Below are positions 5,427-25,773 of a stretch of 64,000 bases of DNA, in pieces. Location: contig NZ_FQWL01000001.1 in NCBI RefSeq assembly GCF_900129665.1, forward strand, positions 310,001 through 374,000. Reading direction: 5' to 3'. Every line of letters starts with the position of its first letter. The stretch's first letter is position 1. This stretch comes from Flagellimonas flava (GTDB lineage: Bacteria > Bacteroidota > Bacteroidia > Flavobacteriales > Flavobacteriaceae). Both the position numbers and the translations under genes were made by a program. Under the pieces are notes generated by a model that saw only the letters and a program-made list of their open reading frames with translations, did no database searches and had not been told where the DNA came from.

Positions 5427-5456
5427 AAAAAAGAAATGTAATTAAAAAGAAAAAAC

Positions 5457-7052: not shown

Positions 7053-7075
7053 TTTGAGTTAGGTTTAAGTCGCGA

Positions 7076-7112
7076 AAATACCAATGCTGTTCCTGGCATT
7101 GGTATTTTTTTC
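7076..7112 (+). terminator. Rho-independent terminator after the first susCD pair
   Basis: A perfect 12-bp stem, AAATACCAATGC paired with GCATTGGTATTT, with an 8-base loop, runs straight into a T tract ending near 7111. It lies 24 bases after the SusD stop codon. Confidence 0.88.
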
Positions 7113-7175
7113 TTTAATTACTTTACCTAGGGATAATTCCTCTTGGGGTATCATAATATTACCTAATCTGTACAT

Positions 7176-10100
7176 ATGAAGCGTTTTCGTTTAAGACTTT
7201 TTTTGGCCGGAATTCTCGTCGCTACTTTTTTATCTTGTTTGGACCCAGGTACTGACACCATGTTTTCTCAAATGCCCGCCCAAAAAACAGGTATCTCCTT
7301 TGTAAACAAACTCTTGGAGACCGAAGAGTTTAATGTTTTGGAATATAGTTATCTGTATAACGGAGGAGGTGTGGCCATTGGAGATATCAACAATGATGGT
7401 TTGTTGGATATTTATTTTACAGGAAATATGGTCGGAAGTCACTTATATCTTAATCAAGGGAATTTTGAGTTCAAGGAAATTGCCAAGGAAGCCGGTGTTT
7501 TTGCTGAAGGTCTTTGGAACACAGGAACCACAATGGCCGATGTAAATGCCGACGGTCTTCTGGATATTTATGTGTGCCGGTCGGCCGCAAAGGCCCCGCA
7601 CAAAAGGAGAAACTTGTTGTTCATCAACAATGGGGACCTAACCTTTACGGAAAAGGCCGAACAATTCGGTGTGGACGATTCCGGATACACTACGCATGCA
7701 TCCTTTTTTGATTACGATAATGACGGGGATCTTGACCTCTACGTCCTTAATCACTCAACCCAAGAGTACGCAGGTTTTGATAGGATTACTCATACCCTTA
7801 AAAAAAGAAAGAATGCCGCCTATTCGGATAAACTCTATAAAAATGAGGGAGGTTATTTTCTGGACATGGGCTCACAGGCCGGACTGATTTCGAATGTTCT
7901 TGGTTTTGGACTCGGACTATCTGTTTCTGATGTCAATAATGATGGCTGGCTGGATATTTACATCTCCAACGATTACAACGAACAAGATTACCTCTATATC
8001 AATAACCAAGATGGAACCTTTACGGAAGATTTGGAAAACCACGTGGGCCATACTTCTCTCTTTTCCATGGGAAGTGATGTAGCAGATCTTAATAATGATG
8101 GTTATACCGATATCATTACGCTGGATATGCTCCCTGAGGATAACTACAGGCAAAAAATGGTTTCTGGTCCAGACAATTACGAAAAACACAGTCTTCTTGC
8201 GGAAACAGGATTTTATCACCAAACCATGAGGAACATGGTTCAGTTGAACAATCAGGGCAACTCTTTTTCTGAAATAGGACAGTTCTCGGGCATTTCAAAT
8301 ACGGATTGGAGCTGGGCAGCTTTGGCAGCGGATTATGATAACGATGGTTTTAAAGATGTCTATATCACAAATGGGTACAAGCGGGATTATACCAACATGG
8401 ATTTCATCAACTATGCCGTACAAGAGAAACTCAATGAGGATAAAACTGGTCAGCGCACCGCAATTTCAGAGTTGCTGGAGAACATGCCCTCGGCGGTGGT
8501 GGAAAACTATATGTACCATAACAATGGAGACCTGACATTCAACAAGGTTAACTCGGAATGGGGACTTGATCAGAAATCACTTTCCAATGGTGCGGCCTAT
8601 GCAGATTTGGACAATGACGGGGATTTGGATTTGGTAATCAATAACATTGATGAACCTGCCTTCATCTATAGAAATAATAGCGAGACACATCTTGGCCATA
8701 ACTTTTTAAAAGTCAAACTGCAGGGAAGCAAATGGAACACCTTTGGTATTGGAGCAAAGATTAGCGTAAACTCAGGGGAAAATATTATGGTCCAAGAAAT
8801 GATTCCCAGCAGGGGATACCAATCCTCTATGCCCTATGACCTTGTTTTTGGATTAGGGAAAGATAGTGTTGCGGAAAAACTGACAGTACGATGGCCCGAT
8901 GGAAAGGTTCAGGAACTCCATGATATAGAAGCCAACACCGTCCAAACGCTTTCATACGCAGATGCCGTAACCATTTTAGAAAGCGAGATAAGCGAAAAAT
9001 CAACCCATTTTGTTTCGGTGGCCGCGGATAGTCTTATGCGTTACCGTCATCAAGAAAATGAATACAATGATTTTAAGAGGGAACGCCTTCTTCCACATCA
9101 GTTGTCGACCCAGGGCCCGAAAATTGCCCAGGGAGATTTCGACGGTGATGGCCTATCGGATATTTATATTGGTGGTGCAAAAGGAAGCCAGGGAGGACTG
9201 TTCAGGCAGGATAGAAAAGGCGGTTTCACCGCCATTAACACCTCTTTTATGGAAGAGGATGGCGGTTCGGAGGATATAGACGCTGAGTTCTTTGATGCTG
9301 ATGGTGATGGAGATTTGGACCTCTACGTCGTCAGTGGGGGCAATGCCTTTGATAAAGGGTCAGAGGCGCTTCAAGACCGATTATATATCAACGATGGTAA
9401 AGGTAATTTCCGTAAAAGCCCAAATGCGCTACCTAAAATGTATAACAGTGGTTCCTGTGTTAGCATTGGGGATTTTGATGCTGATGGGGACCAAGATCTT
9501 TTCGTGGGAGGAAGGGTGCTGCCCGGAGAGTACCCAGAATCACCTAGAAGCTTCATTTTAATAAATGATGGTAAAGGACAGTTTAGCGATGGCACGGAAA
9601 ACGTGAATCCAGATTTAAAATTTCCTGGAATGGTCACAGATGCGATATGGTCTGATATTAACTCGGATGGAAATCTTGATTTGATCGTTGTGGGAGAATG
9701 GATGCCCATCCGGGTATTTTCCAATTCAGGGAACAAGTTGGAAGAAATTACCCAAACCTGTGGTAACAAAGATTCAGAAGGATTCTGGAACAGTATTATA
9801 GGTGAGGACTTTGATAATGATGGGGATATGGATTTTGTTGTGGGCAATTTTGGGTTAAACTCCCAGTTAAAAGCATCCCTTTCGGAGCCTGCGACACTAT
9901 ATGTAAAGGATTTTGATGGTAATGGATCGCTAGACCCTGTTCTTTGCTCCTACATCATGGGAGAGGAATACCCGGCTTTCTCAAAAGATGACCTGGTGGA
10001 ACAATTGAATGGTCTCAAGAGCAAGTATGTGAATTATAAGGATTACGCCAATGAACGGATAACTGATATTTTCACATCGGAAGAATTGGATGGGGCAACC

Positions 10101-10484
10101 ACTCTGGTGGCCAAAAACCTTAGCACCGGTTATTTAGAAAATTTAGGGAATGATCAGTTTCAGTTTAAAGCTCTGCCTACTGAAACACAGACAGCTCCAG
10201 TCTATGGACTGCTCTCTGGTGATTTCAACCACGACGGAAAAAAGGATATTCTTCTGGGAGGTAACTTTTTCGGTACCCGGGTAAAATATGGCAGGTATGA
10301 TGCAAACAAGGGCACCTTGCTCTTAGGAGATGGTACTGGTGATTTTGAGCCGGTCAATGTAGCCTCTAGCGGACTCAACATTGATGGAGAGGTAAGGGAC
10401 ATCACCAATATAAAACTATCAGATGGAAGTAATTTGGTGGTTTTTGTCAAAAATAACACTGATGTGGAATGTTTTAAATATTGA
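7176..10484 (+). CDS. FG-GAP/VCBS-repeat lipoprotein with ASPIC/UnbV domain
   Basis: Secreted lipoprotein of 1102 residues with a lipobox at Cys21 (TFLSCLDPG). Many calcium-binding-type FG-GAP repeats are spread along it, seen as D-x-N/D-x-D-G motifs such as DINNDGLLDIYF, DYDNDGDLDLYV and DFDADGDQDLFV. They indicate one or more beta-propellers. An ASPIC/UnbV domain sits near 510-590 (GIGAKISV, then TVRWPDGKVQEL). In Bacteroidota such proteins are common beside SusCD pairs, but their biochemical role is not established; binding of polysaccharide or protein at the cell surface is inference. Its stop codon is followed after one base by the ATG of the next gene, which indicates a two-gene operon. 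Confidence 0.88.
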   Translation: MKRFRLRLFLAGILVATFLSCLDPGTDTMFSQMPAQKTGISFVNKLLETEEFNVLEYSYLYNGGGVAIGDINNDGLLDIYFTGNMVGSHLYLNQGNFEFKEIAKEAGVFAEGLWNTGTTMADVNADGLLDIYVCRSAAKAPHKRRNLLFINNGDLTFTEKAEQFGVDDSGYTTHASFFDYDNDGDLDLYVLNHSTQEYAGFDRITHTLKKRKNAAYSDKLYKNEGGYFLDMGSQAGLISNVLGFGLGLSVSDVNNDGWLDIYISNDYNEQDYLYINNQDGTFTEDLENHVGHTSLFSMGSDVADLNNDGYTDIITLDMLPEDNYRQKMVSGPDNYEKHSLLAETGFYHQTMRNMVQLNNQGNSFSEIGQFSGISNTDWSWAALAADYDNDGFKDVYITNGYKRDYTNMDFINYAVQEKLNEDKTGQRTAISELLENMPSAVVENYMYHNNGDLTFNKVNSEWGLDQKSLSNGAAYADLDNDGDLDLVINNIDEPAFIYRNNSETHLGHNFLKVKLQGSKWNTFGIGAKISVNSGENIMVQEMIPSRGYQSSMPYDLVFGLGKDSVAEKLTVRWPDGKVQELHDIEANTVQTLSYADAVTILESEISEKSTHFVSVAADSLMRYRHQENEYNDFKRERLLPHQLSTQGPKIAQGDFDGDGLSDIYIGGAKGSQGGLFRQDRKGGFTAINTSFMEEDGGSEDIDAEFFDADGDGDLDLYVVSGGNAFDKGSEALQDRLYINDGKGNFRKSPNALPKMYNSGSCVSIGDFDADGDQDLFVGGRVLPGEYPESPRSFILINDGKGQFSDGTENVNPDLKFPGMVTDAIWSDINSDGNLDLIVVGEWMPIRVFSNSGNKLEEITQTCGNKDSEGFWNSIIGEDFDNDGDMDFVVGNFGLNSQLKASLSEPATLYVKDFDGNGSLDPVLCSYIMGEEYPAFSKDDLVEQLNGLKSKYVNYKDYANERITDIFTSEELDGATTLVAKNLSTGYLENLGNDQFQFKALPTETQTAPVYGLLSGDFNHDGKKDILLGGNFFGTRVKYGRYDANKGTLLLGDGTGDFEPVNVASSGLNIDGEVRDITNIKLSDGSNLVVFVKNNTDVECFKY

Positions 10485-10485
10485 T

Positions 10486-13400
10486 ATGGGGCTTTTAAAA
10501 TATATCGTTTCGACTTTTATTGGATTTTTGCTGTGCGCATCCAACAACCTGATTGCACAAACAGCTACTATTACGGAGGAGACGAGAAGTTTGGATACCT
10601 ATGGGTTCCACACTCCCAACCCTGTTCCAATACTTACAGAAAACACGAAAATCTTTCCTTACTATAAGTTTGAGGGATATGAACATGATTCGAGAAAAAA
10701 GAATTGGAAGGTCATCAAATTGGAAAATGAGTACATAGAAGTCTATGTGTTACCAGAGATTGGCGGGAAAGTATGGGGTGCCATTGAAAAGAGCACCGGC
10801 AATGAGTTCTTGTACCGGAACGAAGTAGTTAAATTCAGAAATATCTCCATGAGGGGTCCCTGGACCTCCGGGGGAATCGAATTTAACTTTGGAATTATCG
10901 GACACCATCCGTCCACGGCGACTCCGGTGGATTACAAAATCCAGAAAAATGAAGATGGAAGCGTAAGCTGTATTGTTGGTAATTTTGACTTGCCCTCAAG
11001 GACCTATTGGCAAGTGGAAATACGACTGGAAGGTGATAAGGCATTTTTTGAAACCAATGCATCATGGTATAACGGAACCCCGTTGAGTCAATCCTACTAC
11101 AACTGGATGACCGGAGCTGCGGTAGCAACGGATGATTTGGAATTCTTTATTCCCGGAAATGGTTACTTGGAGCATAATGGCACTTGGCAAAAATGGCCTA
11201 TTGACAATCAAGGACGAAACCTTGCCATGTATAGGAACAATGATTTTGGCCCCGCCAAATCCTACCATATAGTAGGAGACTATCAAAATTATTTTGGCGG
11301 CTATTACCACGATAGAAAAGTTGGGTTTGGGCATTGGTCTTCATACGAGCAAATGCCAGGACAAAAACTTTGGTTATGGGCGCTTTCCCGTGCAGGAGGT
11401 ATTTGGGAGGATCTATTGACGGATACGGATGGACAATACATAGAGTTTCAGGCAGGTCGCTTGTTCAATCAGTATTTCCCCGGAGCGGAGAATCCGGTTT
11501 CCCAGGTAGGTTTTGACCCCTATGTCTTGGATTCTTGGCAAGAACTCTGGTTTCCTTTTAAGCAGATTGGCGGAATGGAGGCCGCATCTGAATATGGTGT
11601 GCTCAACTTGGAAAGAAATGGGGACACAGCTTATATAGGAATCAATGCACTACAAACGTTTAATGAACCTCTCAAGATTTTTGTCAATGGGAAGGAAGTT
11701 GTAAGTCAACAACTAGATATGAAACCTATGGAAGTTTTTGAAACGGACATTAGCTGTAATCAAGGAGATTCCATCGAGGTAGTTCTGGGAAATGGCAAGC
11801 TCTACTACACCTCAGAAAATGTTACTTTGCTTAAGAGGGACTTCGTGCACAAACCTGAAGTGCAGCGCTCCCACATGGAAAAACTATACCATAAGGCTTC
11901 GGAAGCCATGAAGTATCGGGAGTACGACTTGGCCGAAAAAAAGCTTGGGGAGCTGTTAAGTTTGGATCCTACGCATACCGGTGCACTCCTTCTTTCTGGG
12001 GAGGCGGAATATAGAAAAACCAACTATGATAAGGCCTTGGGTTATGCCAATAAAGTGTTGCAGCTCGATACCTATGATTCCAAGGTGAATTATTTGGCGG
12101 GGATATCCTATAGGGCCAAAAATGATGCTGTAAATGCGCTTGAAGCCTTGGGCTGGGCCGCGCGTTCCATTGCATATCGTTCTGTAGCCTTTGCTCAAAT
12201 GGCCGAAATTTATTTGGGCATGGACAATTTGGACCAGGCGGAATCTTATGCGCTTCAGGCCTTGGATTTCAATGCACATAATTTAAATGCACGTCAGGTT
12301 TTGTTGGTCGTTTACCGAAAACAAAAACAAACCGAAGCCCTTGACTTACAGCTTCAGCAAATCGAGCAGGTAAGTCCAATCAACCATATGGCTAAGTTGG
12401 AACAATTGCTAATGGCCGAAAAAGATATAACCGCCATTCAGGGAGATATCCAGAACGAATTTGCCAAAGAGACCTTATTGGAACTGGCTTTGGGCTATTT
12501 AAGTCTTGGCCAAAAAGACGTTGCACAAGAATTATTGAAGATCAATGGGGGAGATAGTAAGACCAAACTGTTTTTGGCTGCTCTGATTCGTGATTCGGAT
12601 ATTGAAAAAAGCGATGCTCTGTTAGAAGAAGTAGATAAGGCTGCCCCTGACTTTGTTTTTCCATATAGGAGGGAAATGATTCCTGTTTTGGAAGAGATTG
12701 TTGGTGTGCATGACAGTTGGAAGTTCAAGTACTACCTCGCTCAAAACTATTTAGCCGTTGGTCTCAGGGATAAAGCAACACAACTCTTGGAGGAATGTGG
12801 CAATCAACCCGATTATGCACCTTTTTATATGTTTAGGGCCAAAATATGGGATAAACCATATGGCGACTTGCTAAGCGATTATACTACCGCACTAAATTTG
12901 GACAATGCTTCATGGAAAAATTGGGACGATTTTATCCGTTTTCACCAAGATAGTGGTAAGAATGAAGAAGCAGCCAAGTTAGGAAAGAAGGCCTTCAAGA
13001 AATTCCCGGACAACTACAACGTGGGATTGAGTTATGCACGGGCCTTGGTCGCCATCCAAAGTTACACTAAGGCCATATCTGTCCTTTCTGGATTACGTAT
13101 TTTACCTTTTGAGCACGCTTCGGAAAGTAAAAAAATCTATAGTGAAGCACATCTGTTCTTAGCAAAACAACTGATGGATAAAAAGCAATTCAATAAGGCC
13201 GCTCAATTGTTGGAGGCTTCAAAGGAATGGCCCGAGCATTTAGGTATTGGGGCACCTTACAATCCTGATAACCGTATACCGGATTATCTCCTTGGGCTTT
13301 GTTATAAAAACCTCGGAGACATCGATAAGGCAAAGTCATACTTTGAATCTGTATCATCCTATAAAAGCACTGCCGAGCAGATTTCCAAAAACACCTTTTT

Positions 13401-13605
13401 TGAACTATTGGCCCTAGGTGAAATCGGAGAAAAAGACAGTCAAGGGCAACTATTTGATAAAATCAAATCAGCGGCGATCGACAACAAGAATGCTGGGTTG
13501 ATTTTGGCCTTGTATAATAAGGATATCGATCAAGTTGAATCACTTCGGAAATCGCAGGGTATCGATTCTAGAATCATTCAAATTATGGAATATAGCATGC
13601 CCTAG
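10486..13605 (+). CDS. DUF5107 and TPR-repeat protein
   Basis: Exported protein of 1039 residues from the ATG at 10486, which gives a proper signal peptide (MGLLKYIVSTFIGFLLC...). The reading frame is open 63 bases further upstream, but that would put 21 unlikely residues before the signal and overlap the previous gene. Residues about 30-390 are a DUF5107 domain, a galactose-mutarotase-like beta-sandwich fold by family knowledge (YVLPEIGGKVWGAIEK, then GPWTSGGIEFNFGI). From about 450 onward there are TPR-type helical repeats. It is translationally linked to the FG-GAP gene (1-base gap). The substrate is unknown; a carbohydrate-related role is inferred from fold and context. Confidence 0.85.
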   Translation: MGLLKYIVSTFIGFLLCASNNLIAQTATITEETRSLDTYGFHTPNPVPILTENTKIFPYYKFEGYEHDSRKKNWKVIKLENEYIEVYVLPEIGGKVWGAIEKSTGNEFLYRNEVVKFRNISMRGPWTSGGIEFNFGIIGHHPSTATPVDYKIQKNEDGSVSCIVGNFDLPSRTYWQVEIRLEGDKAFFETNASWYNGTPLSQSYYNWMTGAAVATDDLEFFIPGNGYLEHNGTWQKWPIDNQGRNLAMYRNNDFGPAKSYHIVGDYQNYFGGYYHDRKVGFGHWSSYEQMPGQKLWLWALSRAGGIWEDLLTDTDGQYIEFQAGRLFNQYFPGAENPVSQVGFDPYVLDSWQELWFPFKQIGGMEAASEYGVLNLERNGDTAYIGINALQTFNEPLKIFVNGKEVVSQQLDMKPMEVFETDISCNQGDSIEVVLGNGKLYYTSENVTLLKRDFVHKPEVQRSHMEKLYHKASEAMKYREYDLAEKKLGELLSLDPTHTGALLLSGEAEYRKTNYDKALGYANKVLQLDTYDSKVNYLAGISYRAKNDAVNALEALGWAARSIAYRSVAFAQMAEIYLGMDNLDQAESYALQALDFNAHNLNARQVLLVVYRKQKQTEALDLQLQQIEQVSPINHMAKLEQLLMAEKDITAIQGDIQNEFAKETLLELALGYLSLGQKDVAQELLKINGGDSKTKLFLAALIRDSDIEKSDALLEEVDKAAPDFVFPYRREMIPVLEEIVGVHDSWKFKYYLAQNYLAVGLRDKATQLLEECGNQPDYAPFYMFRAKIWDKPYGDLLSDYTTALNLDNASWKNWDDFIRFHQDSGKNEEAAKLGKKAFKKFPDNYNVGLSYARALVAIQSYTKAISVLSGLRILPFEHASESKKIYSEAHLFLAKQLMDKKQFNKAAQLLEASKEWPEHLGIGAPYNPDNRIPDYLLGLCYKNLGDIDKAKSYFESVSSYKSTAEQISKNTFFELLALGEIGEKDSQGQLFDKIKSAAIDNKNAGLILALYNKDIDQVESLRKSQGIDSRIIQIMEYSMP

Positions 13606-13655: not shown

Positions 13656-14234
13656 TTACTCTACTTCCACGATCATTTCAATCTCCACGGCAATGTTGGT
13701 GGGCAAAGAGCCCATTCCAACAGCTGCACGCGCATGTTTTCCACGTGCCCCAAAAACTTCAACCATAAGGTCGGAAAAGCCATTGATTACCTTGGGGTGG
13801 TCCACAAAGTCCGGTGCGGCATTCACCATACCAAGGACTTTTACAACCCGTTTTACCTTGTTCAGATTGCCCAATTCAGCCTTAAGCACAGCGAGTTGGT
13901 TCAGAGCCGTAATACGTGCGGCCTCATAACCTTCTTCAATAGATAAATCAGCTCCAACCTTTCCAGTGATGTATTCTCCATCATCCATTTTAGGTCCTTT
14001 GCCAGCCAGAAAAATCAAATTGCCAGTTCGCACGGCATTTACATAGTTGGCCACCGGAGCGGATGGGGTGTTCAGTGTCACACCCATTTCTGCCAGTTTC
14101 GCCTCTGGATCATAATTGGGATCTGTTTCCTGGGTTTGTGTGTCCTTTTGCGGTTTCTCTGGAGCTTTCTCAGATGTAGGGCCACACGAAACTAGAACCA
14201 AGGATAGCAATAGGCCTTGAAATATGTTTTTCAT
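13656..14234 (-). CDS. RidA/YjgF-family lipoprotein
   Basis: RidA-superfamily protein of 192 residues with an N-terminal lipoprotein signal (lipobox ending at Cys17, LVLVSCGPTSEK) and a charged linker to about residue 45. The body is a complete RidA fold (about 50-192). It contains GKHARAAVGMGSLP with the conserved Arg and a C-terminal VEIEMIVEV, matching the YjgF-like subgroup that has an ARG-K-HAR pattern. Classical RidA proteins hydrolyse reactive enamines/imines made by PLP enzymes in the cytoplasm. This one is predicted to be membrane-anchored outside it. It is the last gene of the minus-strand operon, directly after the PLP enzyme (21-base gap). The activity is inferred from the family. 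Confidence 0.88.
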   Translation of the reverse strand: MKNIFQGLLLSLVLVSCGPTSEKAPEKPQKDTQTQETDPNYDPEAKLAEMGVTLNTPSAPVANYVNAVRTGNLIFLAGKGPKMDDGEYITGKVGADLSIEEGYEAARITALNQLAVLKAELGNLNKVKRVVKVLGMVNAAPDFVDHPKVINGFSDLMVEVFGARGKHARAAVGMGSLPTNIAVEIEMIVEVE

Positions 14235-14255
14235 AATTATTGGATTTGCATAAAA

Positions 14256-15470
14256 TTAAGCGTTTTCCAAAACTTCTTTCACCCTTTGGGCCACGATTCT
14301 CTCTTGACCCGGAATCATCATCCAAGTGGTGATGCCAATCGTATCCTTGTTACCAACGGTGGCGATGGATGGGTGCCCATCCTTTAATTTCTTGCGTGCC
14401 TCTTCAGCAGTAATTTTGACCACATTTTCATCCCACTTGATACGCAGCGACGGTACATGGTTCGCATGTGGGGGCACGTGAATCTCAGTCTCCACACCCT
14501 TGACGGATCTTGCGCTATCCGAAATCAATTTTATCTGACTTTCCCAAAGCTTCCATTCGGCGTCGTGATCTTTGTTCAAATAGGTTTCCAAAGCTGCCAA
14601 CATGCCCAGAACCTCTTCCTTGTTCACTTTCATTCCCCTTCCAATTGTGGTGCCTCTTGGGGGTGTATGCATCCTGGCGGCTTCAATGTATTTGCGTTTG
14701 CCTAAAAGTAGCCCGGCACTCTGAGGACCACGGATTCCCTTGCCTCCAGAAAAAGCAACCAAATCAAACCCCATTTTAGTAAACTTGAATAAATTCTCAA
14801 CCGGAGGTACATCGGCAGCGCAATCGATAAAAGTTGGAACGCCGTGTTTCTTGCCCAGAGCCACAAATTCCTCCCTTTTTATTTCGCCCTCTTCGGTGTT
14901 TGCATTTAAGAACCAGAGCATGGCCGTATTCTTGTTGATGGCCTTTTCCAGATCTTTGGCAGTTTTTACCCAAACCAGTTTAGCGCCAACATTTGTCAAT
15001 GCCTTGGAATAACCAATATTATGGGCTTCTTGGAGGATGATTTCGTTCTTGATTCCAGAGGAATCGGGTAATCTGGCCACAATTTTTTCATCCATTCCAC
15101 TTAGCACGCCTGCGGTACCAATAGACATGGCTCCAAACGCTCCTGAGGTTACCGTGGCATATTCACATTCCAATAATTGGGCTATACGTTCACCAACCTT
15201 ATCCTGAAGCTCATCCAAATCCACATATTCCGTTGCTCCATAAGTGATGGCGGAAAGTACTTGCTCGGACATCAATGAACCGGTCATGGAAGTGTAGGTT
15301 CCCGCAGCATTGATGAAGGTTCGTATTCCCAATTCCTTAAAGAAATTGCGTGATGCTGTTGTTTCCACAGCGGCGTGCATCATATTCGTGGTGAGCAATC
15401 CCGTTCCAACCAAACCTCCCACTACGGGGACACTGGAAAGGGTCTTTAAAAGTTTTCTTCTAGTAAGCAT
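14256..15470 (-). CDS. Tat-exported SelA/DgaE-like PLP-dependent enzyme
   Basis: Fold-type I PLP enzyme of 404 residues. The PLP lysine is predicted at K244 in FSGGKGIRGPQS, the motif of the SelA / D-glucosaminate-6-phosphate ammonia-lyase (DgaE) group. The N-terminus, TRRKLLK followed by a hydrophobic stretch (about 12-27), resembles a twin-arginine signal. Tat export of a folded, cofactor-loaded enzyme would be logical for PLP. It lies between two exported RidA genes (20- and 21-base gaps), which fits a beta-eliminating ammonia lyase whose enamine/imine product is cleared by RidA. It is not a selenocysteine synthase: no tRNA-Sec or selenophosphate context is seen. The substrate is unknown, possibly a 3-hydroxy amino acid or amino sugar acid. 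Confidence 0.85.
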   Translation of the reverse strand: MLTRRKLLKTLSSVPVVGGLVGTGLLTTNMMHAAVETTASRNFFKELGIRTFINAAGTYTSMTGSLMSEQVLSAITYGATEYVDLDELQDKVGERIAQLLECEYATVTSGAFGAMSIGTAGVLSGMDEKIVARLPDSSGIKNEIILQEAHNIGYSKALTNVGAKLVWVKTAKDLEKAINKNTAMLWFLNANTEEGEIKREEFVALGKKHGVPTFIDCAADVPPVENLFKFTKMGFDLVAFSGGKGIRGPQSAGLLLGKRKYIEAARMHTPPRGTTIGRGMKVNKEEVLGMLAALETYLNKDHDAEWKLWESQIKLISDSARSVKGVETEIHVPPHANHVPSLRIKWDENVVKITAEEARKKLKDGHPSIATVGNKDTIGITTWMMIPGQERIVAQRVKEVLENA

Positions 15471-15490
15471 GATCTTGTTTTTATAATTCG

Positions 15491-15958
15491 TTAATCCAAT
15501 GCTGCTATGCAGTCAATTTCTACCAAAGAGTCTCCGGGAACACCACCGTAAACGGCAACTGTTGTTCGTACTGGGGGATTTTCACCGAAGCGACCCCGAT
15601 ATACCTCGTTCATGCCATGATAATCCTCCAAATCGTGCAGGTACACATTTACCTTCAATACCTTGTCCATGGAGGAGCCATTTTTTACCAGCTCTTTTTC
15701 TATTTCTTTGAGCACATGGTCTGTGTGCGATTTAATATCTCCTTCAAAATGCGCGCCTTTACCGGCAACGTATAAGGTGTTTCCATGTTTCACGGCCCCA
15801 GAAAACAAGGGGATTTTTTTGTCTTGGACGATTTCACCAACTACCTCTTTCTTTGGAGCTGGTGCTTTGCCCATTGCCTTCACTGAGCCCGCACCCAATA
15901 GGGCGGCTACCCCCATTCCTAATTTTTTAAATGCTGACCTTCTATCAGTTTTTTCCAT
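15491..15958 (-). CDS. RidA-family enamine/imine deaminase with Tat-like signal
   Basis: RidA-family protein of 155 residues. The N-terminus (DRRSAFKKLG, then VAALLGAG) is twin-arginine-like and is followed by a RidA domain at about 40-155. The catalytic-type Arg lies in NPPVRTTVAV and the C-terminal acidic motif in LVEIDCIA, as in true enamine/imine deaminases. It sits immediately upstream of the PLP enzyme in the same operon and presumably hydrolyses that enzyme's reactive product to a 2-keto acid plus ammonia. Sequence and length differ clearly from the second RidA at 13656, so the two are not a recent duplication. The periplasmic location is predicted from the signal only. Confidence 0.88.
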   Translation of the reverse strand: MEKTDRRSAFKKLGMGVAALLGAGSVKAMGKAPAPKKEVVGEIVQDKKIPLFSGAVKHGNTLYVAGKGAHFEGDIKSHTDHVLKEIEKELVKNGSSMDKVLKVNVYLHDLEDYHGMNEVYRGRFGENPPVRTTVAVYGGVPGDSLVEIDCIAALD

Positions 15959-16006
15959 TGTATAGTGCTTTTAATTAATGATTTGATTTCGTGTATGATT
16001 CTTTGA

Positions 16007-16960
16007 TTACCACATGCGTTTTTCCAAGAGTTCCTTTACTTGTTCCTTTGGTACCGGAAGTTCATCAATATGATTCCGAAGCCATTGGGAGAAGTCTTTT
16101 TCGATTTCCTCGGTCCATTTATTGTCGATTTGCCCTGGAGTGTATTTGCCCTCCTTAAGTCTGGTGATTCCGAACAGGTCCCTAAGTCGGACCACTTCAG
16201 AGGTTACCACCACCTTTTCAGCGAGATGGGCCGGAATAAACATGACACCTTCTTTTTTGGCCAAGACGATATCCCCGGGAAGCACAGTGGCCGCACCCAT
16301 TCTAATCGGTGTATTAATGCTGAGCAGCATCACTTCGGTGAGAAATGATGGGTCCCAGCCTCTTACAAAAGCATTAAACCCTTCAATTTCTGAAAGTCCC
16401 TCCATATCCCGACTAGAGGCATTAAAGACGACGCCATTTTTTGATTTGGCATAAATGGAATTTCCCAAATTGTCGCCAATCAAGGTTCCGTTAACAATTT
16501 TACCGAACGCGTCTGCGACATAAACATCTCCTTCCACAAGCATATCTATAGGCCAAGAATTGGTATTCCCAATTCTTCCATCGGCTTTGCCTTTTTTCTT
16601 TATTTGGTCCGAAACATCCGGCCTATTTGGCATGTATTGGACCGTAAGGGCCCTTCCTATCACCGGAACGTCGTCATGTAGCGGTTGCCAGCCACTTTCA
16701 AACTGATTGTGGTAGCCTTCGTTGCGTAAAACACCCCATGCCTCTTCAATGGTTACCTTTTTCATCCTTTGCAGGACATCATCTGCCACTTTGGGTCGTC
16801 CGTCGTCAAATCGTTCGCCTGTGTACTGGGGTGTAAGGAATTCCATTTGACTTTTGGTCAGGGTCTGTGCTTGTAGGTTTCCCACAGCTAGTACCGAAAA
16901 AACCAGGAGTAAGCTTAATATATCATGTAGTTTCATCTCGAAATGTTTAATTAGGGTCAT
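16007..16960 (-). CDS. RraA-like (HMG aldolase / oxaloacetate decarboxylase-like) exported protein
   Basis: RraA-superfamily protein of 317 residues, longer than usual because of an export signal and an N-terminal extension. The likely start is the second Met at 16936, giving a Sec signal (MKLHDILSLLLVFSVLAVG). The first ATG at 16960 would overlap the BASS gene end by 14 bases. Visible family motifs are GDVYVADAFG, GDNLGN, the SSRDME segment with the substrate/metal Arg-Asp pair, and PGDIVLAKKEGVMFIP. Family members are divalent-metal aldolases or decarboxylases acting on 4-hydroxy-4-carboxy-2-oxo acids. Placed after a PLP lyase and RidA, it could split a 2-keto acid to pyruvate plus a smaller product; that is inference. 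Confidence 0.82.
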   Translation of the reverse strand: MTLIKHFEMKLHDILSLLLVFSVLAVGNLQAQTLTKSQMEFLTPQYTGERFDDGRPKVADDVLQRMKKVTIEEAWGVLRNEGYHNQFESGWQPLHDDVPVIGRALTVQYMPNRPDVSDQIKKKGKADGRIGNTNSWPIDMLVEGDVYVADAFGKIVNGTLIGDNLGNSIYAKSKNGVVFNASSRDMEGLSEIEGFNAFVRGWDPSFLTEVMLLSINTPIRMGAATVLPGDIVLAKKEGVMFIPAHLAEKVVVTSEVVRLRDLFGITRLKEGKYTPGQIDNKWTEEIEKDFSQWLRNHIDELPVPKEQVKELLEKRMW

Positions 16961-18083
16961 TTTGTTCTTTATCAGAATCGGTTGTTTCAGTATCTGGATC
17001 TTTGTCGCGCCACCATGTTGCGAGGGAGGAACCTGAAATATTCATCCATGGGCCAAAAACTGCTGGAGCTAGGCCTATAGTGGCCACTTTTCCCATCTCC
17101 AAGGCTATGCCGGAAGCCAATCCACCATTTTGCATACCTACTTCCAACGCAATGGTTCGGCAATCCTGTTCTTTCATTTTTAATACTCGGCACGACCAAT
17201 ATCCCAGGAAATAGCCGGCGATATTATGGATGATAGCTGCCAAAATCAGGAAAAGACCAATGGTGAGGAGGCTATCACGGCCAGCAGCTGTGATGATTGC
17301 AATTATGAGCGCAATTCCAGCCATAGAAACTATGGGCATGGCCCGGTCCAGCCATTTGGCCTTACCATGGAAAAAGTAATTGAAGAGTAATCCCAGAATT
17401 ATGGGAAGGATTACAATTTTGACGATGCTCAACATCATTCCCCAAAAATCTATAGGGACAAATTGCCCGGCAAAAGTTTTCATTAAAAGGGGGGTCATTA
17501 AGGGGGCCAATACGGTTGAAACTGCGGTCAGGGTAACGGAAAGTGCCAAGTTGGCCTTTGCCAAATAGGCCATGACGTTGGAAGCCAATCCACTTGGAGA
17601 AGACCCCACCAGTACAATACCAGCAGCTATTTCAGCTGGAAAACCGAATAAACTTGCGATGGTGAATCCTAGAACAGGCATGATGGTAAATTGGCAGACC
17701 AGACCGACCAGAACACCCTTTGGCATTTTAACCACTCCAGCAAAATCCTTAATGCTCATTGCGGTCCCCATACCGAACATAATAAGCTGCAAAAGTGGAA
17801 CAATCAACGATTTAAGCTGGAACTCTCCAATTGATGTAAAATAGGAGGGATAGTACATGGAAACGCTTACCGCGGCAAAAACCAAAATGGTAAAGGAGAA
17901 CCCCTTTAATTTTTTTGAACCTCTGAAGCCCAATGCCAACAAAAGGAAAAACAGGACAACGGTTGGTCCTGTTTGTTGTCCATGTCCGAGAATCAGCAAG
18001 ACCAGCGTAGCTACTAAACAGAGCAATGCTGCAATTAAAAGAAGTTTATATTGTTTTTTCATTGGTTGGTTGCGTTTTGTCAT
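16947..18083 (-). CDS. BASS-family sodium/organic-anion symporter
   Basis: Inner-membrane transporter of 378 residues with about ten hydrophobic segments and SBF/BASS features: LVGSSPSGLASNVMAYLAKAN in the core and a second half with EVGMQNGGLASGIA. The two Asn/Gly-rich motifs are those around the sodium and substrate sites of bile-acid:sodium symporter homologues. In bacteria this family carries various organic anions (for example pyruvate or pantoate in characterised relatives), so a bile acid substrate should not be assumed. Its ATG overlaps the amidohydrolase stop by 4 bases (ATGA), indicating coupled translation. It probably takes up the acid made by the periplasmic enzymes encoded around it. 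Confidence 0.88.
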   Translation of the reverse strand: MTKRNQPMKKQYKLLLIAALLCLVATLVLLILGHGQQTGPTVVLFFLLLALGFRGSKKLKGFSFTILVFAAVSVSMYYPSYFTSIGEFQLKSLIVPLLQLIMFGMGTAMSIKDFAGVVKMPKGVLVGLVCQFTIMPVLGFTIASLFGFPAEIAAGIVLVGSSPSGLASNVMAYLAKANLALSVTLTAVSTVLAPLMTPLLMKTFAGQFVPIDFWGMMLSIVKIVILPIILGLLFNYFFHGKAKWLDRAMPIVSMAGIALIIAIITAAGRDSLLTIGLFLILAAIIHNIAGYFLGYWSCRVLKMKEQDCRTIALEVGMQNGGLASGIALEMGKVATIGLAPAVFGPWMNISGSSLATWWRDKDPDTETTDSDKEQNDPN

Positions 18084-19351
18084 TTATCCCAAGGTGTGCT
18101 GGCCAGGCCATTTAAGTCCCACACTACCTCACCCTCTCGAATTGTAAGTTCGCACTCCAGTTTTTGAGTGCCTTTCATTTTTTTCTTTCTAGTATCAATA
18201 AAACCAAAATCCCCTTTTCTCAAATTCAGAATGGCTACATCCGCCACAGCTCCTTCTGAGAGATGGCCTAAGTCCTCTCTTTGGATGATTTGAGCCGGTT
18301 GCCAGGTGGAACTGCCGATTACCTCATTTAGCGGCATGTCCATATTCAAGAATTTGGACATGACATTAATTTGGGTTTTCATACCACCGTTCATGCTCCC
18401 GGTATGCAAATCGGTACTGATGGAATTGGGTTTTAACCCCTGTTTCATGGCCGGGATAGCTTGCTCGAATAGAAAACTACCGCCTCCGTGACCCACGTCA
18501 AAGATAATTCCTCGTTCTTGAGCGGTAAAAACGAAATCCCTGACCTTTCCATTTTTGTCCACAATGGGAGTTCTACCATTTACATGGGCATAGGCATGGG
18601 TGAAAATATCCCCAGGTCTCAATTTTTCCAAAAACAAGGTTTTTATGGGCAGTTCAGGATCGCTACCTCCAAAATCAATCATCACAGGTATGCTGGCCAA
18701 TTTACCTGCTTCCACTGCCCGTTCGGTCGGGGTCCAATTATACCCACTATAATGAGCCAGCTTTACACCGACCACAATATCTGGAAATTGCTTTGCCACC
18801 ATGGCAGTCAATCTGGCATCCATGTCTGAAACATCTTGTTCAATGGCGCCACCCTTCATTCCCAAGCCCACAATATTCAAAAAAGCCAATACTCTAGTTT
18901 TGGAACGATCAACAACCTGCTCCTTAAACTTCCTGAAATCTCTCCAACCCGAACTACCCGCATCAGCCACGGTGGTCACCCCACTGCGAAGGGTAAAGCC
19001 GTCTGGAGGAAGCGCTGCAAAACTGTTATTTAAATAACCAAAAGGAACGGTTCCATGGAAGTTATGGGTATGAATATCCAACAAGCCAGGGGTAACGTAA
19101 AGCCCTTGGGCATCAATTACCTTTTTTGCCTGCCTTTGTGGAATTTGCGCATCAACTTTGGCAATCTTGCCTTCTAGAATGGCTACATCCATTATTTGGT
19201 CTACTCCATTTTTTACATCGATTACATGGCCATTCTTAATAAGCAAGTCATAGTCTTGGGCAGTAATAGGGAGCATAGCCAAAAACATAACCATAACTTT
19301 GGCCGCATTTTGAATGCAGGACGGAATCTTGATTTTACTTTTTTTGCACAT
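18080..19351 (-). CDS. Exported amidohydrolase/deacetylase-family metallohydrolase (cog3964-like)
   Basis: Amidohydrolase-superfamily enzyme of 423 residues with an N-terminal hydrophobic export segment (about 16-31, ending ITAQ). The binuclear metal site is visible: H94 and H96 in DIHTHNF, the probable carboxylated K197 in GVKLAHYSG, H252 or H256 in FTHAYAH, H288 in DVGHGGGS and D314 in STDLHTGS. Together with the ISTDLHTGSM pattern this places it in the EF0837/Atu3266-type amidohydrolase/deacetylase group. Characterised members cleave acylated small carboxylates. In other bacteria such genes neighbour DgaE-like PLP lyases, as here. It could provide the PLP enzyme with a de-acylated substrate. 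The stop is coupled to the BASS gene (4-base overlap). Confidence 0.86.
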   Translation of the reverse strand: MCKKSKIKIPSCIQNAAKVMVMFLAMLPITAQDYDLLIKNGHVIDVKNGVDQIMDVAILEGKIAKVDAQIPQRQAKKVIDAQGLYVTPGLLDIHTHNFHGTVPFGYLNNSFAALPPDGFTLRSGVTTVADAGSSGWRDFRKFKEQVVDRSKTRVLAFLNIVGLGMKGGAIEQDVSDMDARLTAMVAKQFPDIVVGVKLAHYSGYNWTPTERAVEAGKLASIPVMIDFGGSDPELPIKTLFLEKLRPGDIFTHAYAHVNGRTPIVDKNGKVRDFVFTAQERGIIFDVGHGGGSFLFEQAIPAMKQGLKPNSISTDLHTGSMNGGMKTQINVMSKFLNMDMPLNEVIGSSTWQPAQIIQREDLGHLSEGAVADVAILNLRKGDFGFIDTRKKKMKGTQKLECELTIREGEVVWDLNGLASTPWDK

Positions 19352-21550: not shown

Positions 21551-22279
21551 CTATTCAAAAATCAGTTTTCCGAAAAACTCGGGACGATGGAAGTCTGGTT
21601 TTTTAGTATGGACCGGATTCCAACTTAGGTAATGTTTCTCTGAGGTTGCATCTCCACATTTGTAAAAATTTGCTCTTGAGCTAAGCCCCTTTAACTGGAT
21701 TTGAGGATTATGAGCGAGGCTTTCGGCAGGTATAATAATGGTAATTTCCCATTGGTGCCCACCCTTTTTTTCAGCAAAAGGTTGAGAACCCAGCGAAGAT
21801 TGAACCTGAATTTGTTTGTGGATATCGTCTGGGTTGCTAAACTGTCTTTTTTTCCTTTGCGGTCCGTAAGCCAAGTGTGTTGTCCCTATACAATTGAATT
21901 CGAAATTGTAATAGCTACCATCACCCAAGGGATCAAAGAAAAACTCAACACAACTATCCTTGGAGACATAATCATTGGTTTGTGTCTTTTCGGCAAGAAT
22001 ATTATCCTCCACCACCTCATATTTTAACCAGATGTTATTGTTCCAATGCGCTATCTTAAAAGATACTTTAGGTTGGTAGGAAAAGCGTTCCCAATTGACT
22101 AGGTCTACCGCATGGCTTTCCGTGTTCGTATCCAATAGTTTTGAAACCTGTTGGATATCAGGGTTTCCTTCAAATTTGATTTCTTTTACTATTATGGTTT
22201 TATCCACATGGTTGGTTTTAGGGTTACAGCCTGCAATCAGCAAACAAAGGAAAAAGAGGGTGGACCACTTTTTAAACAT
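21551..22279 (-). CDS. CBM9-like carbohydrate-binding lipoprotein
   Basis: Lipoprotein of 242 residues (lipobox at Cys18, CLLIAGCNPK). The mature part resembles the carbohydrate-binding module family 9-like domain used in sugar-binding proteins: WERFSYQPKVSFKIAHWNNNIWLKY near 65-90, DSCVEFFFDPLGDG near 105-120, and the terminal LSWNPVHTKKPDFHRPEFFGKL. A ligand cannot be predicted. It follows the AraC regulator on the same strand after 52 bases, so they may be co-transcribed, and it precedes the 340-base gap before the PQQ operon. Whether it belongs with the hydroxyproline genes or with the periplasmic operon is unclear. Confidence 0.75.
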   Translation of the reverse strand: MFKKWSTLFFLCLLIAGCNPKTNHVDKTIIVKEIKFEGNPDIQQVSKLLDTNTESHAVDLVNWERFSYQPKVSFKIAHWNNNIWLKYEVVEDNILAEKTQTNDYVSKDSCVEFFFDPLGDGSYYNFEFNCIGTTHLAYGPQRKKRQFSNPDDIHKQIQVQSSLGSQPFAEKKGGHQWEITIIIPAESLAHNPQIQLKGLSSRANFYKCGDATSEKHYLSWNPVHTKKPDFHRPEFFGKLIFE

Positions 22280-22331: not shown

Positions 22332-23201
22332 CTAGAATTTTGCTCGATATTGGGAGGGTGTGCATCCCTTTATCTGTTTAAACTTTCTGTTGAAGTTGGC
22401 AATATTCTTAAATCCGCAACGCTCCGCAATCATTGAAATGGACAGTTCCGCGCCACTTGAAATAAATTTACTGGCCTGTTCAACCCTGATTTCAATTAAA
22501 AATTGAAAAAAGGTCTTATTGGTCCTTTTTCTAAAATAGCGACAAAAGGCATTTTTGCTCATGTTGGCTACATTAGAGACTTGATCTAAAGTGATAGGTT
22601 CATGAAACTTTTCCATCGCAAACCTGAAAACATCACCCATTCGTTTCCCCTCGTCATCAGAATACATTTTTTTATAGACAAATGAAGAAAGAGGGGCTGT
22701 TTTGGCCTTGGAAATTAGATTTAGAACAAGTAGCAAAGTGGCCATCTGTTCTACCTTATTTTGCTTCGCCAAGGACTTAAAGAGTGGGATGATATGATCC
22801 TTTTTCGACAGGATTTTCATCCCATGCTTGGATTTTTCAAAGAAATCTTGAAGGGAGGAAAGATCTGGAATGTCAAAGAAAGTTTCTCCGAAGGCATCCT
22901 TGTCAAAAAAAAGCGTGTACATCACGGATTGATGTGCCGCCTTGGAGTCACTTTTAAATACATGTGGAAGAAAACCACCAATAACCAAAATATCGTTTTC
23001 CCTGTATTCATTTATAGTATCTCCCACAACTAGGGAACCCAAACCTTTTTCCACAAAACTAATCTGGATTTCTCCATGCTGGTGCAACTGGTTATAAAAG
23101 ACGTGCTCCCGGTCTTCTTGATAGACCAAGGCCTCATTTTTAGGTTTCGGGATTTTAAAAGGGAGGACCTTCAATTTGTTGTTTGGACTTAAATTAATCA
23201 A
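22332..23201 (-). CDS. AraC-family transcriptional regulator (cupin sensor)
   Basis: AraC/XylS-type regulator of 289 residues. A cupin-like sensor domain occupies about 25-110 (HQHGEIQISFVEKG, then DILVIGGFLPHVF). A double helix-turn-helix fills the C-terminus (about 195-289), with ITLDQVSNVANMSKNAFCRYF and SISMIAERCGFKNIANFNRKFK. It is transcribed divergently from the hydroxyproline-type catabolic genes starting at 23311 and is their obvious candidate regulator. The inducer is probably an imino acid or an intermediate of that pathway, by analogy only. Confidence 0.92.
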   Translation of the reverse strand: MINLSPNNKLKVLPFKIPKPKNEALVYQEDREHVFYNQLHQHGEIQISFVEKGLGSLVVGDTINEYRENDILVIGGFLPHVFKSDSKAAHQSVMYTLFFDKDAFGETFFDIPDLSSLQDFFEKSKHGMKILSKKDHIIPLFKSLAKQNKVEQMATLLLVLNLISKAKTAPLSSFVYKKMYSDDEGKRMGDVFRFAMEKFHEPITLDQVSNVANMSKNAFCRYFRKRTNKTFFQFLIEIRVEQASKFISSGAELSISMIAERCGFKNIANFNRKFKQIKGCTPSQYRAKF

Positions 23202-23284
23202 AAAAACAAAATATTAATTACATTTTGGGTAATATAGTATTAGTATAGGTTAATTTTTGGCCCAACGGATTCTGTTGACTCACC

Positions 23285-23292
23285 TAATTTTG
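23285..23292 (+). promoter_or_regulatory. Bacteroidota-type -7 element (TAATTTTG)
   Basis: TAATTTTG matches the TAnnTTTG consensus and lies 18 bases before the ATG at 23311. A TTTG at 23256-23259 is 25 bases upstream, further than the usual spacing, so the -33 element is doubtful. If real, it supports translation starting at 23311 rather than at the in-frame ATG at 23257. Confidence 0.4.
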
Positions 23293-23310
23293 CGTCAAAT
23301 AACTATTATT

Positions 23311-24234
23311 ATGGTACAATGGGAGGGTGTTATGCCCGCAGTTACGACAAAGTTTACAGCTGATGATCAATTGGATTTGGTCATGTTTGAAAAAAACATT
23401 CGCGCTCAATTGGAGGCAGGAGTTCATGGTATTATCTTGGGTGGCACCTTAGGGGAGGCCAGCACCTTAACACGCGAAGAAAAGGAGGTACTGATTAAAA
23501 CCTCTTTGTCCATTGTTGAAGGGCAGGTACCTGTAATCATTAATATTGCAGAACAAAGCACTTCGGATGCTATAGCGGTTGCCCAACATGCAGAAGCGGT
23601 TGGAGCGGAAGGCCTGATGTTGTTACCGCCAATGCGCTATAAGGCTACTGATTTTGAAACTGTGACCTATTTTAAGGCAATTGCCAATAGCACTTCGCTA
23701 CCTATAATGATATATAACAATCCTGTCGACTATAAAATTGAGGTAACTTTGGAGATGTTCGATGCGTTGACCGAATGCGAAAATATTCAGGCGATAAAAG
23801 AATCGACCAGGGATATCACGAATATTATCCGATTGAAAAACCGTTTTGGTGACAGATTCAAAGTGTTCACTGGGGTAGATACCCTTGGTTTGGAAAGCTT
23901 GGTCATTGGGGCAGATGGATGGGTTGCCGGTTTGGTTTGCGCCTATCCGGCGGAAACCGTGGCCATTTATGAATTGGTCAAGGCAGGAAAGATAGAGGAA
24001 GCCATGAAGATTTACAGTTGGTTCATTCCGTTGCTGGAACTTGATATTAGTCCACAATTGGTTCAAAATATTAAATTGGCCGAAGTGGCAACGGGCATAG
24101 GGACGGAACACGTAAGAGCTCCAAGGCTGCCACTTCATGGTGCGGAAAGGGCGAGGGTCATTGGTGTTATTGACAAGGCGATGCAGAATCGTCCAACCTT
24201 GCCAGATTATAAAAATCTTAGAACCATAGCATAA
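23311..24234 (+). CDS. Dihydrodipicolinate-synthase-family lyase, probable Pyr4H2C deaminase
   Basis: Class I aldolase of the DHDPS/NAL family, 307 residues from the ATG at 23311 (an in-frame ATG at 23257 would add 18 residues and bury the -7-like element). The Schiff-base lysine is near residue 163 in QAIKESTRD, the catalytic Tyr near 135 in MIYNNPVDY, and the carboxylate-binding loop is GGTLGEAST. With a hydroxyproline epimerase and an oxoglutarate-semialdehyde-type dehydrogenase downstream, the likely reaction is delta-1-pyrroline-4-hydroxy-2-carboxylate to 2-oxoglutarate semialdehyde plus ammonia. A sugar-acid lyase role is less likely. The stop directly abuts the next ATG (TAA then ATG at 24235). 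Confidence 0.87.
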   Translation: MVQWEGVMPAVTTKFTADDQLDLVMFEKNIRAQLEAGVHGIILGGTLGEASTLTREEKEVLIKTSLSIVEGQVPVIINIAEQSTSDAIAVAQHAEAVGAEGLMLLPPMRYKATDFETVTYFKAIANSTSLPIMIYNNPVDYKIEVTLEMFDALTECENIQAIKESTRDITNIIRLKNRFGDRFKVFTGVDTLGLESLVIGADGWVAGLVCAYPAETVAIYELVKAGKIEEAMKIYSWFIPLLELDISPQLVQNIKLAEVATGIGTEHVRAPRLPLHGAERARVIGVIDKAMQNRPTLPDYKNLRTIA

Positions 24235-25758: not shown

Positions 25759-25773
25759 TCCTAACATCAGTAA

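Follow-up and report, generated by a model that had tools for sequence, protein, structure and literature searches.

The window analysed here, a stretch of 64,000 nucleotides of Flagellimonas flava (positions 310,001 to 374,000 of contig NZ_FQWL01000001.1), carries an operon of seven minus-strand genes that starts at 21210 and ends at 13656; in the list of open reading frames (ORFs), neighbouring genes are -14 to +59 nt apart. An earlier note on this DNA had taken six of these genes for a deaminating route apparently exported to the periplasm, made up of an amidohydrolase, an RraA-like protein, two RidA proteins, a pyridoxal phosphate (PLP) enzyme and a BASS carrier. All six ORFs sit on the minus strand where that note had placed them, and profile scans return the same families (DgaE/SelA-like, PF01042 twice, RraA, BASS and amidohydrolase), the carrier indeed lying inside the operon; the first enzyme, a lipoprotein resembling glucose/sorbosone dehydrogenase (GSDH) and fused to a cytochrome c, had been missed (Table 1). 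With it the operon reaches 21210, and perhaps 22279 if the CBM9-type lipoprotein gene is part of it. The promoter and terminator scan of the region stayed close to its shuffled background (22 against 21.8 expected and 12 against 10.6 expected, respectively).

Table 1. Genes and signal peptides of the operon, with the CBM9-type gene that lies upstream of it
Feature	Position	Strand	Remark
RidA2, PF14588/PF01042 Rid-family lipoprotein, predicted enamine/imine hydrolase	13656-14234	-	LVLVSC lipobox
DgaE/SelA-like PLP enzyme, predicted 2-amino-aldonate ammonia-lyase	14256-15470	-	Tat-type signal MLTRRKLLK
PLP enzyme Tat signal peptide, approximate, ~residues 1-34	15369-15470	-	R4 R5 50/50; extra N-terminal length relative to 7lc0
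RidA1, PF01042 protein	15491-15958	-	Tat-type signal MEKTDRRSAFKKLGMG
RidA1 Tat signal peptide, approximate, ~residues 1-28	15875-15958	-	
RraA-like exported protein, predicted metal-dependent 2-keto-4-hydroxy acid (pyruvate-type) aldolase	16007-16960	-	Sec leader ending LQAQ
BASS-family inner-membrane carrier (SBF)	16947-18083	-	PF01758
Amidohydrolase/deacetylase metallohydrolase, predicted N-acetyl-amino-aldonate deacetylase	18080-19351	-	Sec leader LPITAQ; NF006689
GSDH-like lipoprotein (PF07995) ending in a fused cytochrome c (CxxCH), predicted to oxidise sugars at C1	19411-21210	-	
CBM9_2-type lipoprotein (PF16011), usual first cluster gene in relatives	21551-22279	-	

The amidohydrolase matches NF006689 at 446.7 bits (cut-off 371) and the RraA-like protein PF03737 at 63.4 bits, while RidA1 and RidA2 score 77.8 and 50.6 bits against PF01042 (cut-off 27.3), both remaining under the TIGR00004 cut-off. 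The carrier exceeds PF01758 (153.1 bits, cut-off 24.3) and does not reach the narrower models TIGR00841 (253.2 of 326.3 bits) and PanS (248.8 of 400). Likewise, the two curated DgaE models are missed widely by the PLP enzyme (167.6 of 600 and 197 of 385.3 bits); its best-matching solved structure is 7lc0, to which nearly the whole mature chain can be aligned.

Conservation was counted over 49 loci of other genomes plus the window, that is, over 50 PLP sequences. The earlier note had assigned export signals to five enzymes of the operon, and this can now be put more strongly, for the signals are conserved across relatives. The Tat-type (twin-arginine translocation) signal claimed for the PLP enzyme is borne out by R4 and R5, invariant in 50/50 sequences while positions 2, 3 and 7 vary, on an N-terminus about 40 residues longer than that of 7lc0. 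RidA1, for which a twin-arginine (RR) signal had also been proposed, has R7 in 34/34 rows and R6 in 33, the remaining one (L029) reading KR; the lipoprotein signal of RidA2 keeps its lipobox Cys17 in 42/42. The leader of RraA ends in A/S/G-Q, with Q32 in 28/29 (one row being a truncated piece), that of the amidohydrolase has Q32 in 47/48, and the lipoprotein cysteine of the GSDH-cytochrome c, Cys42, is found in 46/47, one row again being truncated. A simple in-house Tat rule, which is neither SignalP nor TatP, was positive for 49/49 PLP enzymes and 32/33 RidA1 proteins as against 26/421 other genes of the same loci, many of which resemble genuine Tat leaders; among the other module genes it picked out CBM9 in 3/37 and RraA in 1/28. 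TatC itself is encoded in the 3.83 Mb genome (E 2e-67), and the four other RidA-family genes of that genome (L076, L077, L078, L081) show no export leader when their N-termini are read. The RidA1 leader is of the Tat rather than the Sec type, although I know of no cofactor bound by this protein.

From these N-termini, it is very probable that the set is exported from the cytoplasm. What tells against export is the presence of possible internal starts: an in-frame ATG lies between the RR and the mature part in 33/33 RidA1 and 21/49 PLP genes and, once GTG and TTG are counted, the span is free of any start in only 2/49 PLP and 0/33 RidA1 genes (any start thus occurring in 47/49 PLP genes). The N-termini might then be no functional signals at all, the proteins being cytoplasmic by way of such starts, or membrane-anchored. 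Yet 28/49 PLP genes have no ATG in that span, the RR is invariant, the other enzymes of the same operon have lipobox or Sec-type leaders, and the same pattern returns in an acidobacterium (see below), which makes this explanation highly improbable.

The module as a whole recurs in relatives. In the closest loci, those of Flagellimonas/Allomuricauda (L002-L006), the PLP enzyme is 87-91% identical, and the top protein matches listed are from a Maribacter and a Flagellimonas (92%). Over the 49 loci, collected with the PLP enzyme as query (49), the amidohydrolase is present in 47, the GSDH-cytochrome c in 46, RidA2 in 41, CBM9 in 37, RidA1 in 33, RraA in 28 and BASS in 27, pieces below the score cut-offs being scored absent (as were the amidohydrolase pieces of L028 and L037); all eight genes occur together in 15/49. 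RidA2 is undercounted because the contigs of L038, L040 and L046 stop just past the PLP gene. In L028 and L037, both metagenome assemblies, the amidohydrolase is spread over several ORFs, as are BASS and RraA in L028, which may reflect either decay or sequencing error.

Beyond these loci, 395 evenly drawn Bacteroidota genomes were surveyed with a DgaE-family model, up to four candidates being scored per genome, and at least 8/395, the genome of F. flava included, have a match at E 1e-20. The RR is present on all 13 PLP copies of the phylum loci L067-L074 and on that of L075 (one copy being truncated), and most of these copies are surrounded by amidohydrolase, GSDH-cytochrome c, RidA, RraA, BASS or SusC/D-like genes; L073, cut by the end of its contig, has none of them around its PLP copy. 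In the acidobacterium Granulicella tundricola, consecutive genes encode RraA, a PLP enzyme, RidA, a second PLP enzyme, an amidohydrolase, a lactonase with seven blades and an FAD oxidase of the BBE type. The leader is of the RR type in RidA (Tat rather than Sec here too), in the lactonase and in each of the two PLP enzymes, and Sec-like in the amidohydrolase and RraA. No GSDH is annotated at this locus; a fucosidase, a GH125 and a beta-galactosidase-family protein are also nearby in the record. The layout is therefore not peculiar to the window, being found across Bacteroidota and in one acidobacterium.

Plasmid searches supplied relatives of the PLP enzyme for contrast, and the surroundings of five hits were read. 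In the cytoplasmic relatives of Aminobacter (L087) and Thalassospira (L089) a RidA gene adjoins, together with ABC transporters; near the PLP relative of Haloprofundus (L088) there is a Rid gene and no annotated amidohydrolase, and near that of Sinorhizobium (L090) neither an amidohydrolase nor a RidA is annotated. In a tree of hand-picked rows (30/70, the truncated copy of L069 omitted), one branch with support 100/99 splits 25 exported from 5 cytoplasmic PLP enzymes, a split to which the signal-peptide columns may add. A longer exported paralogue of 532-573 aa with an RR leader (L068:9235-10956, L070:9169-10848 and L086:13701-15299) forms a branch of its own in the tree and perhaps serves another epimer, and the PLP gene of L035 has beside it another PLP-like gene whose RR leader is of the same type.

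The catalytic residues to be expected are conserved across the set, save one metal ligand of the amidohydrolase. In the latter, H94, H96, K197, D226, H252 and D314 are each present in 48/48. The Rid arginine, which I take to be a functional residue of the family, is kept in both proteins (RidA1 Arg131 34/34, RidA2 Arg169 42/42), and the cytochrome c part of the oxidase has its haem motif C498, C501 and H502 in 47/47 each. In RraA, D163, R184 and D185 are found in 29/29, with the D-X20-R-D spacing that is presumably the motif of class II pyruvate aldolases of the RraA/HMG-CHA type. Most RraA-type homologues carry one of two motifs, according to the available part of one report (PMC5065237).

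As for the PLP enzyme, the comparison of active sites is by sequence alignment. The PLP lysine, K244, is conserved in 50/50 and aligns with residue 213 of the 7lc0 chain (Lys-217 in the text of its paper). In DGL, as the accessible portion of the report has it (PMC9529869), docking brought Arg301, Arg332 and Arg346 close to the phosphate, and the proton for C3 comes from His163, the H163A mutant being still active with release of the enamine. The exported enzymes have Ser for Arg301 (50/50), N/D/G/S for Arg332 (50/50) and a gap for Arg346 (50/50), the alignment near the last two being less certain than elsewhere, which counts against leaning on them. The His163 column holds Thr in 48/50, Asn in 2/50 and His in none, the His162 column His in 2/50, and His163 is missing from 12/13 of the other Bacteroidota copies. 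Lack of the phosphate arginines fits an unphosphorylated substrate, as would be expected where ATP is not at hand, and loss of His163 predicts release of the enamine, for which RidA would be suited. To hold that RidA is there solely because the PLP enzyme lost its proton donor His163 proved too strong, for the cytoplasmic relatives L087 and L089 keep His-His (and Arg301) with RidA alongside; 8t7j, which has no His at either column (Arg-Thr), also speaks against a plain exchange of this kind.

DGL and the enzyme studied here share the PLP lysine and the proposed dehydration/deamination class, in both cases an aldolase follows, and two Klebsiella records (H32, H33) have a member of the same amidohydrolase family next to a DgaE gene. 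Unlike here, the substrate of DGL is a phosphorylated acid arising from phosphotransferase (PTS) uptake, hence intracellular; unlike in DGL, the phosphate arginines and His162/His163 are absent here, and dedicated RidA, RraA and BASS genes as well as export are added.

The GSDH domain of the first enzyme scores 48.5 bits against PF07995 (cut-off 25). Proteins of the SMP-30/gluconolactonase family (SGL) occur in at least six of the nine phylum loci, and an SGL-family cluster recurs in the flanks of 7/49 loci (one representative having been scanned). The sugar dehydrogenase fused to cytochrome c, together with the lactonases of relatives, makes an amino sugar oxidised at C1 likelier than the generic acylated 3-hydroxy amino acid that the earlier note had named beside amino sugar acids. 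In L017, on the opposite strand and about 5-9 kb off the module, there are genes for a NagB-like protein, which stays under its cut-offs, and for an N-acyl-D-glucosamine 2-epimerase, which scores 634 bits (cut-off 600); both lend weak support to an amino-sugar substrate. Sulfatase genes near the module in 6/49 loci (L015, L017, L018, L021, L029, L045; one representative scanned) possibly act on sulfated amino sugars.

An exported catabolic module could also act on an N-acyl-D-amino acid or a 3-hydroxy amino acid, from cell wall or peptides for instance, the GSDH-cytochrome c being an unrelated redox partner. The amidohydrolase family does include deacetylases of unproven range, the relatives L087 and L089 lie with ABC transporters and have no annotated GSDH or lactonase in the parts examined (there are a molybdopterin-dependent and an SDR oxidoreductase, respectively), and a 4-hydroxyproline epimerase gene set adjoins the operon in the window. 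I hold this to be unlikely, for the sugar-oxidase-like gene is present in 46/49 loci, genes of lactonase families recur, and the hydroxyproline genes are almost never beside the module in 58 other loci; moreover, the same core has beside it in the acidobacterium a lactonase and an oxidase that belong to other families, and an amino-acid substrate would be hard to square with this. A connection between the operon and the adjacent 4-hydroxyproline genes was dropped, as these are not conserved beside the module in those loci.

The operon thus read would probably serve the extracytoplasmic oxidation and dismantling of an amino sugar, N-acetylglucosamine (GlcNAc) or another N-acetylhexosamine being the best candidate. 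Gene content, export signals, conserved residues and linkage are what was observed, and every reaction of the following route, with its order and substrate, is inferred from them. The lipoprotein GSDH-cytochrome c would oxidise C1 to the lactone and pass the electrons to the respiratory chain; the lactone would open by itself or, in relatives, through a gluconolactonase-family protein; the Sec-exported amidohydrolase would then strip the N-acyl group, giving a 2-amino-aldonate, for instance D-glucosaminate. Tat would export the DgaE-like PLP enzyme in folded form with its cofactor inside, and this enzyme would eliminate water to yield an enamine/imine, which RidA1 and RidA2 may hydrolyse to a 2-keto-3-deoxy-aldonate and ammonia. 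Where present, RraA would cleave this acid into pyruvate and an aldehyde, and BASS, or in some relatives a tripartite ATP-independent periplasmic (TRAP) carrier, would import the keto acid. Deacylation, PLP-dependent elimination, RidA hydrolysis, an aldol step and uptake by BASS were already in the earlier note and stand as a reasonable inference; sugar oxidation and opening of the lactone have to be put before them.

Several findings weigh against this route. Asp226 of the amidohydrolase is found where the solved 2ogj and 8wzy align the beta5 His, presumably a metal ligand (in 8je0 a His lies two residues off); Asp is present in 13/14 further exported amidohydrolases, the 14th fitting no pattern, and His in the cytoplasmic Aminobacter copy. 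With Asp in place of that His the deacetylase chemistry could differ, and the invariant Asp226 is a possible new metal site, to judge from the alignment. The GSDH domain taken alone, compared with solved structures by sequence, gives a best E of 0.088; the assignment comes from the Pfam match, and PQQ (pyrroloquinoline quinone) dependence and sugar oxidation are therefore putative. In Granulicella, RraA is without D-X20-R-D; the FAD oxidase, read from the start annotated for it, lacks an export leader, and this absence speaks against exact equivalence. The genome of F. flava has, in addition, a GH20 and a protein above the NagB cut-off; the idea of the operon as the sole amino-sugar route of this genome was dropped upon these two positive searches.

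Furthermore, RraA is absent from 21/49 loci, and neither BASS nor TRAP is found within the DNA covered for 18/49, all 11 Arenibacter loci included. TRAP DctPQM genes occur in 7/49 (assigned by a family scan in L019 and by clustering elsewhere), four of them among the 22 loci without BASS; such a replacement of BASS by TRAP would suit an organic acid as cargo, for part of the set only. These gaps bear on where the exported pathway would end. It may well stop, as a serious possibility short of being the expected case, at a 2-keto-3-deoxy-aldonate of the 2-keto-3-deoxygluconate (KDG) type, which BASS, TRAP or some other carrier would take up intact, with RraA accessory or otherwise employed: among the loci without RraA are the 11 of Arenibacter, BASS occurs without RraA in L022 and L031, and KDG is phosphorylated in the cytoplasm in the ong pathway, going by the accessible part of its description (PMC9537276). 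Against such an early end, most RraA proteins of the 49 loci and the window start with a Sec-type leader (one row being truncated), and all of their rows keep the aldolase-type motif. The fuller proposal can be put forward tentatively: many Bacteroidota and at least one acidobacterium would degrade an amino sugar wholly outside the cytoplasm, the products being acetate, ammonia and a keto acid of three carbons. The C1 electrons would go to a dedicated cytochrome c, the PLP lyase would be exported by Tat together with its cofactor, RidA proteins would be obligatory enzymes of the periplasmic pathway and not housekeeping ones, and only pyruvate-type acids would cross the inner membrane.

That the module serves to detoxify or salvage reactive enamines or breakdown products of amino sugars, and not for growth, would agree with its two RidA genes, the family being known for enamine clearance in the accessible text of the DGL report (PMC9529869). 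The carrier, the cytochrome c, the aldolase-like gene and, in some loci, SusC/SusD-type genes nearby indicate nutrition instead, and detoxification seems highly improbable.

Described versions of amino-sugar-acid chemistry work inside the cell. The PLP enzyme OngC of the ong pathway, by which Pseudoalteromonas prydzensis uses chitin oxidatively, has another fold type than the enzyme found here, presumably type III. As far as the available part of the report goes (PMC9537276), the ong pathway is alike in that an N-acetyl-amino-aldonate is deacetylated by a D-aminoacylase-like amidohydrolase and then deaminated to KDG, the RidA protein OngD being genetically essential and its role called unknown; it differs in that OngB and OngC are predicted cytoplasmic, an SSS carrier transporting before any chemistry. 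OngB belongs to amidohydrolase subtype V, its site being made of Cys/His/His, as stated in the portion of a second report at hand (PMC12017989), whereas here there is another amidohydrolase group with export leaders. For the haloarchaeon Natrarchaeobius, the accessible text of a third report (PMC12343721) predicts a GlcNAc route in which a glucose dehydrogenase, a DGL-like lyase and a RutC-family gene cluster with chitinases; unlike the route proposed here it has a phosphorylated intermediate, hence is intracellular, and it is a prediction only.

Among the open-access entries that the searches listed, none presents an exported set of this kind in its title or abstract opening. Outside the cytoplasm, quinoprotein dehydrogenases oxidise glucose to gluconate at C1 in the periplasm and hand the electrons to the respiratory chain; to my knowledge this oxidation ends at sugar acids, and no deacetylase, PLP lyase, RidA or aldolase follows there. 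PvdN of Pseudomonas pyoverdine maturation is exported by Tat and belongs to a PLP family differing from that of the operon enzyme. In the excerpted literature it is a precedent for a periplasmic PLP enzyme, yet for a single biosynthetic modification and no catabolic chain. The earlier note had held that a whole periplasmic route of this kind would be a new layout: the whole set outside the cytoplasm does appear new, while the layout is shared well beyond the window and a PLP enzyme in the periplasm has the precedent of PvdN. The pathway appears to be a relocated variant of known glucosaminate catabolism, an oxidase and a cytochrome c of its own being part of what seems new in it.

If the proposed route is true, a full deaminating sugar-acid pathway with reactive enamines would run in the periplasm of many polysaccharide degraders, and amino-sugar-acid breakdown would need no ATP-dependent activation. 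It would bear on two questions, namely the role of RidA in glucosaminate catabolism and the reason for Tat export of a RidA that has no cofactor. A very large family (at least 8000 relatives), whose members are at present labelled aminotransferase class V or selenocysteine synthase, would find an explanation as well, and bacteria of sea and soil would have another route from amino sugars to ammonia.

As for the surroundings of the operon, SusC/SusD, FG-GAP/UnbV and DUF5107 genes (2040-13605) converge on it; genes of the FG-GAP and DUF5107 kinds immediately precede GSDH, in its own orientation, in L030 and L036, a hint that uptake may be shared. On the other side, an AraC-type gene (22332-23201) lies between the operon and divergent genes for hydroxyproline use (23257-26781), namely a 4-hydroxyproline epimerase gene (590 bits, cut-off 376) with those of an aldehyde dehydrogenase and a protein of the DHDPS family. 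Searched at E 1e-10, the 58 other loci (49 plus the nine of the phylum) contain no relative of the epimerase or DHDPS-type gene and a single one of the aldehyde dehydrogenase gene, in L005. Further on, a separate glycan cluster (30132-62077) comprises GH16, GH17, GH30 and GH3 enzymes, MFS carriers and SusD, a family content that I take to be laminarin-like.

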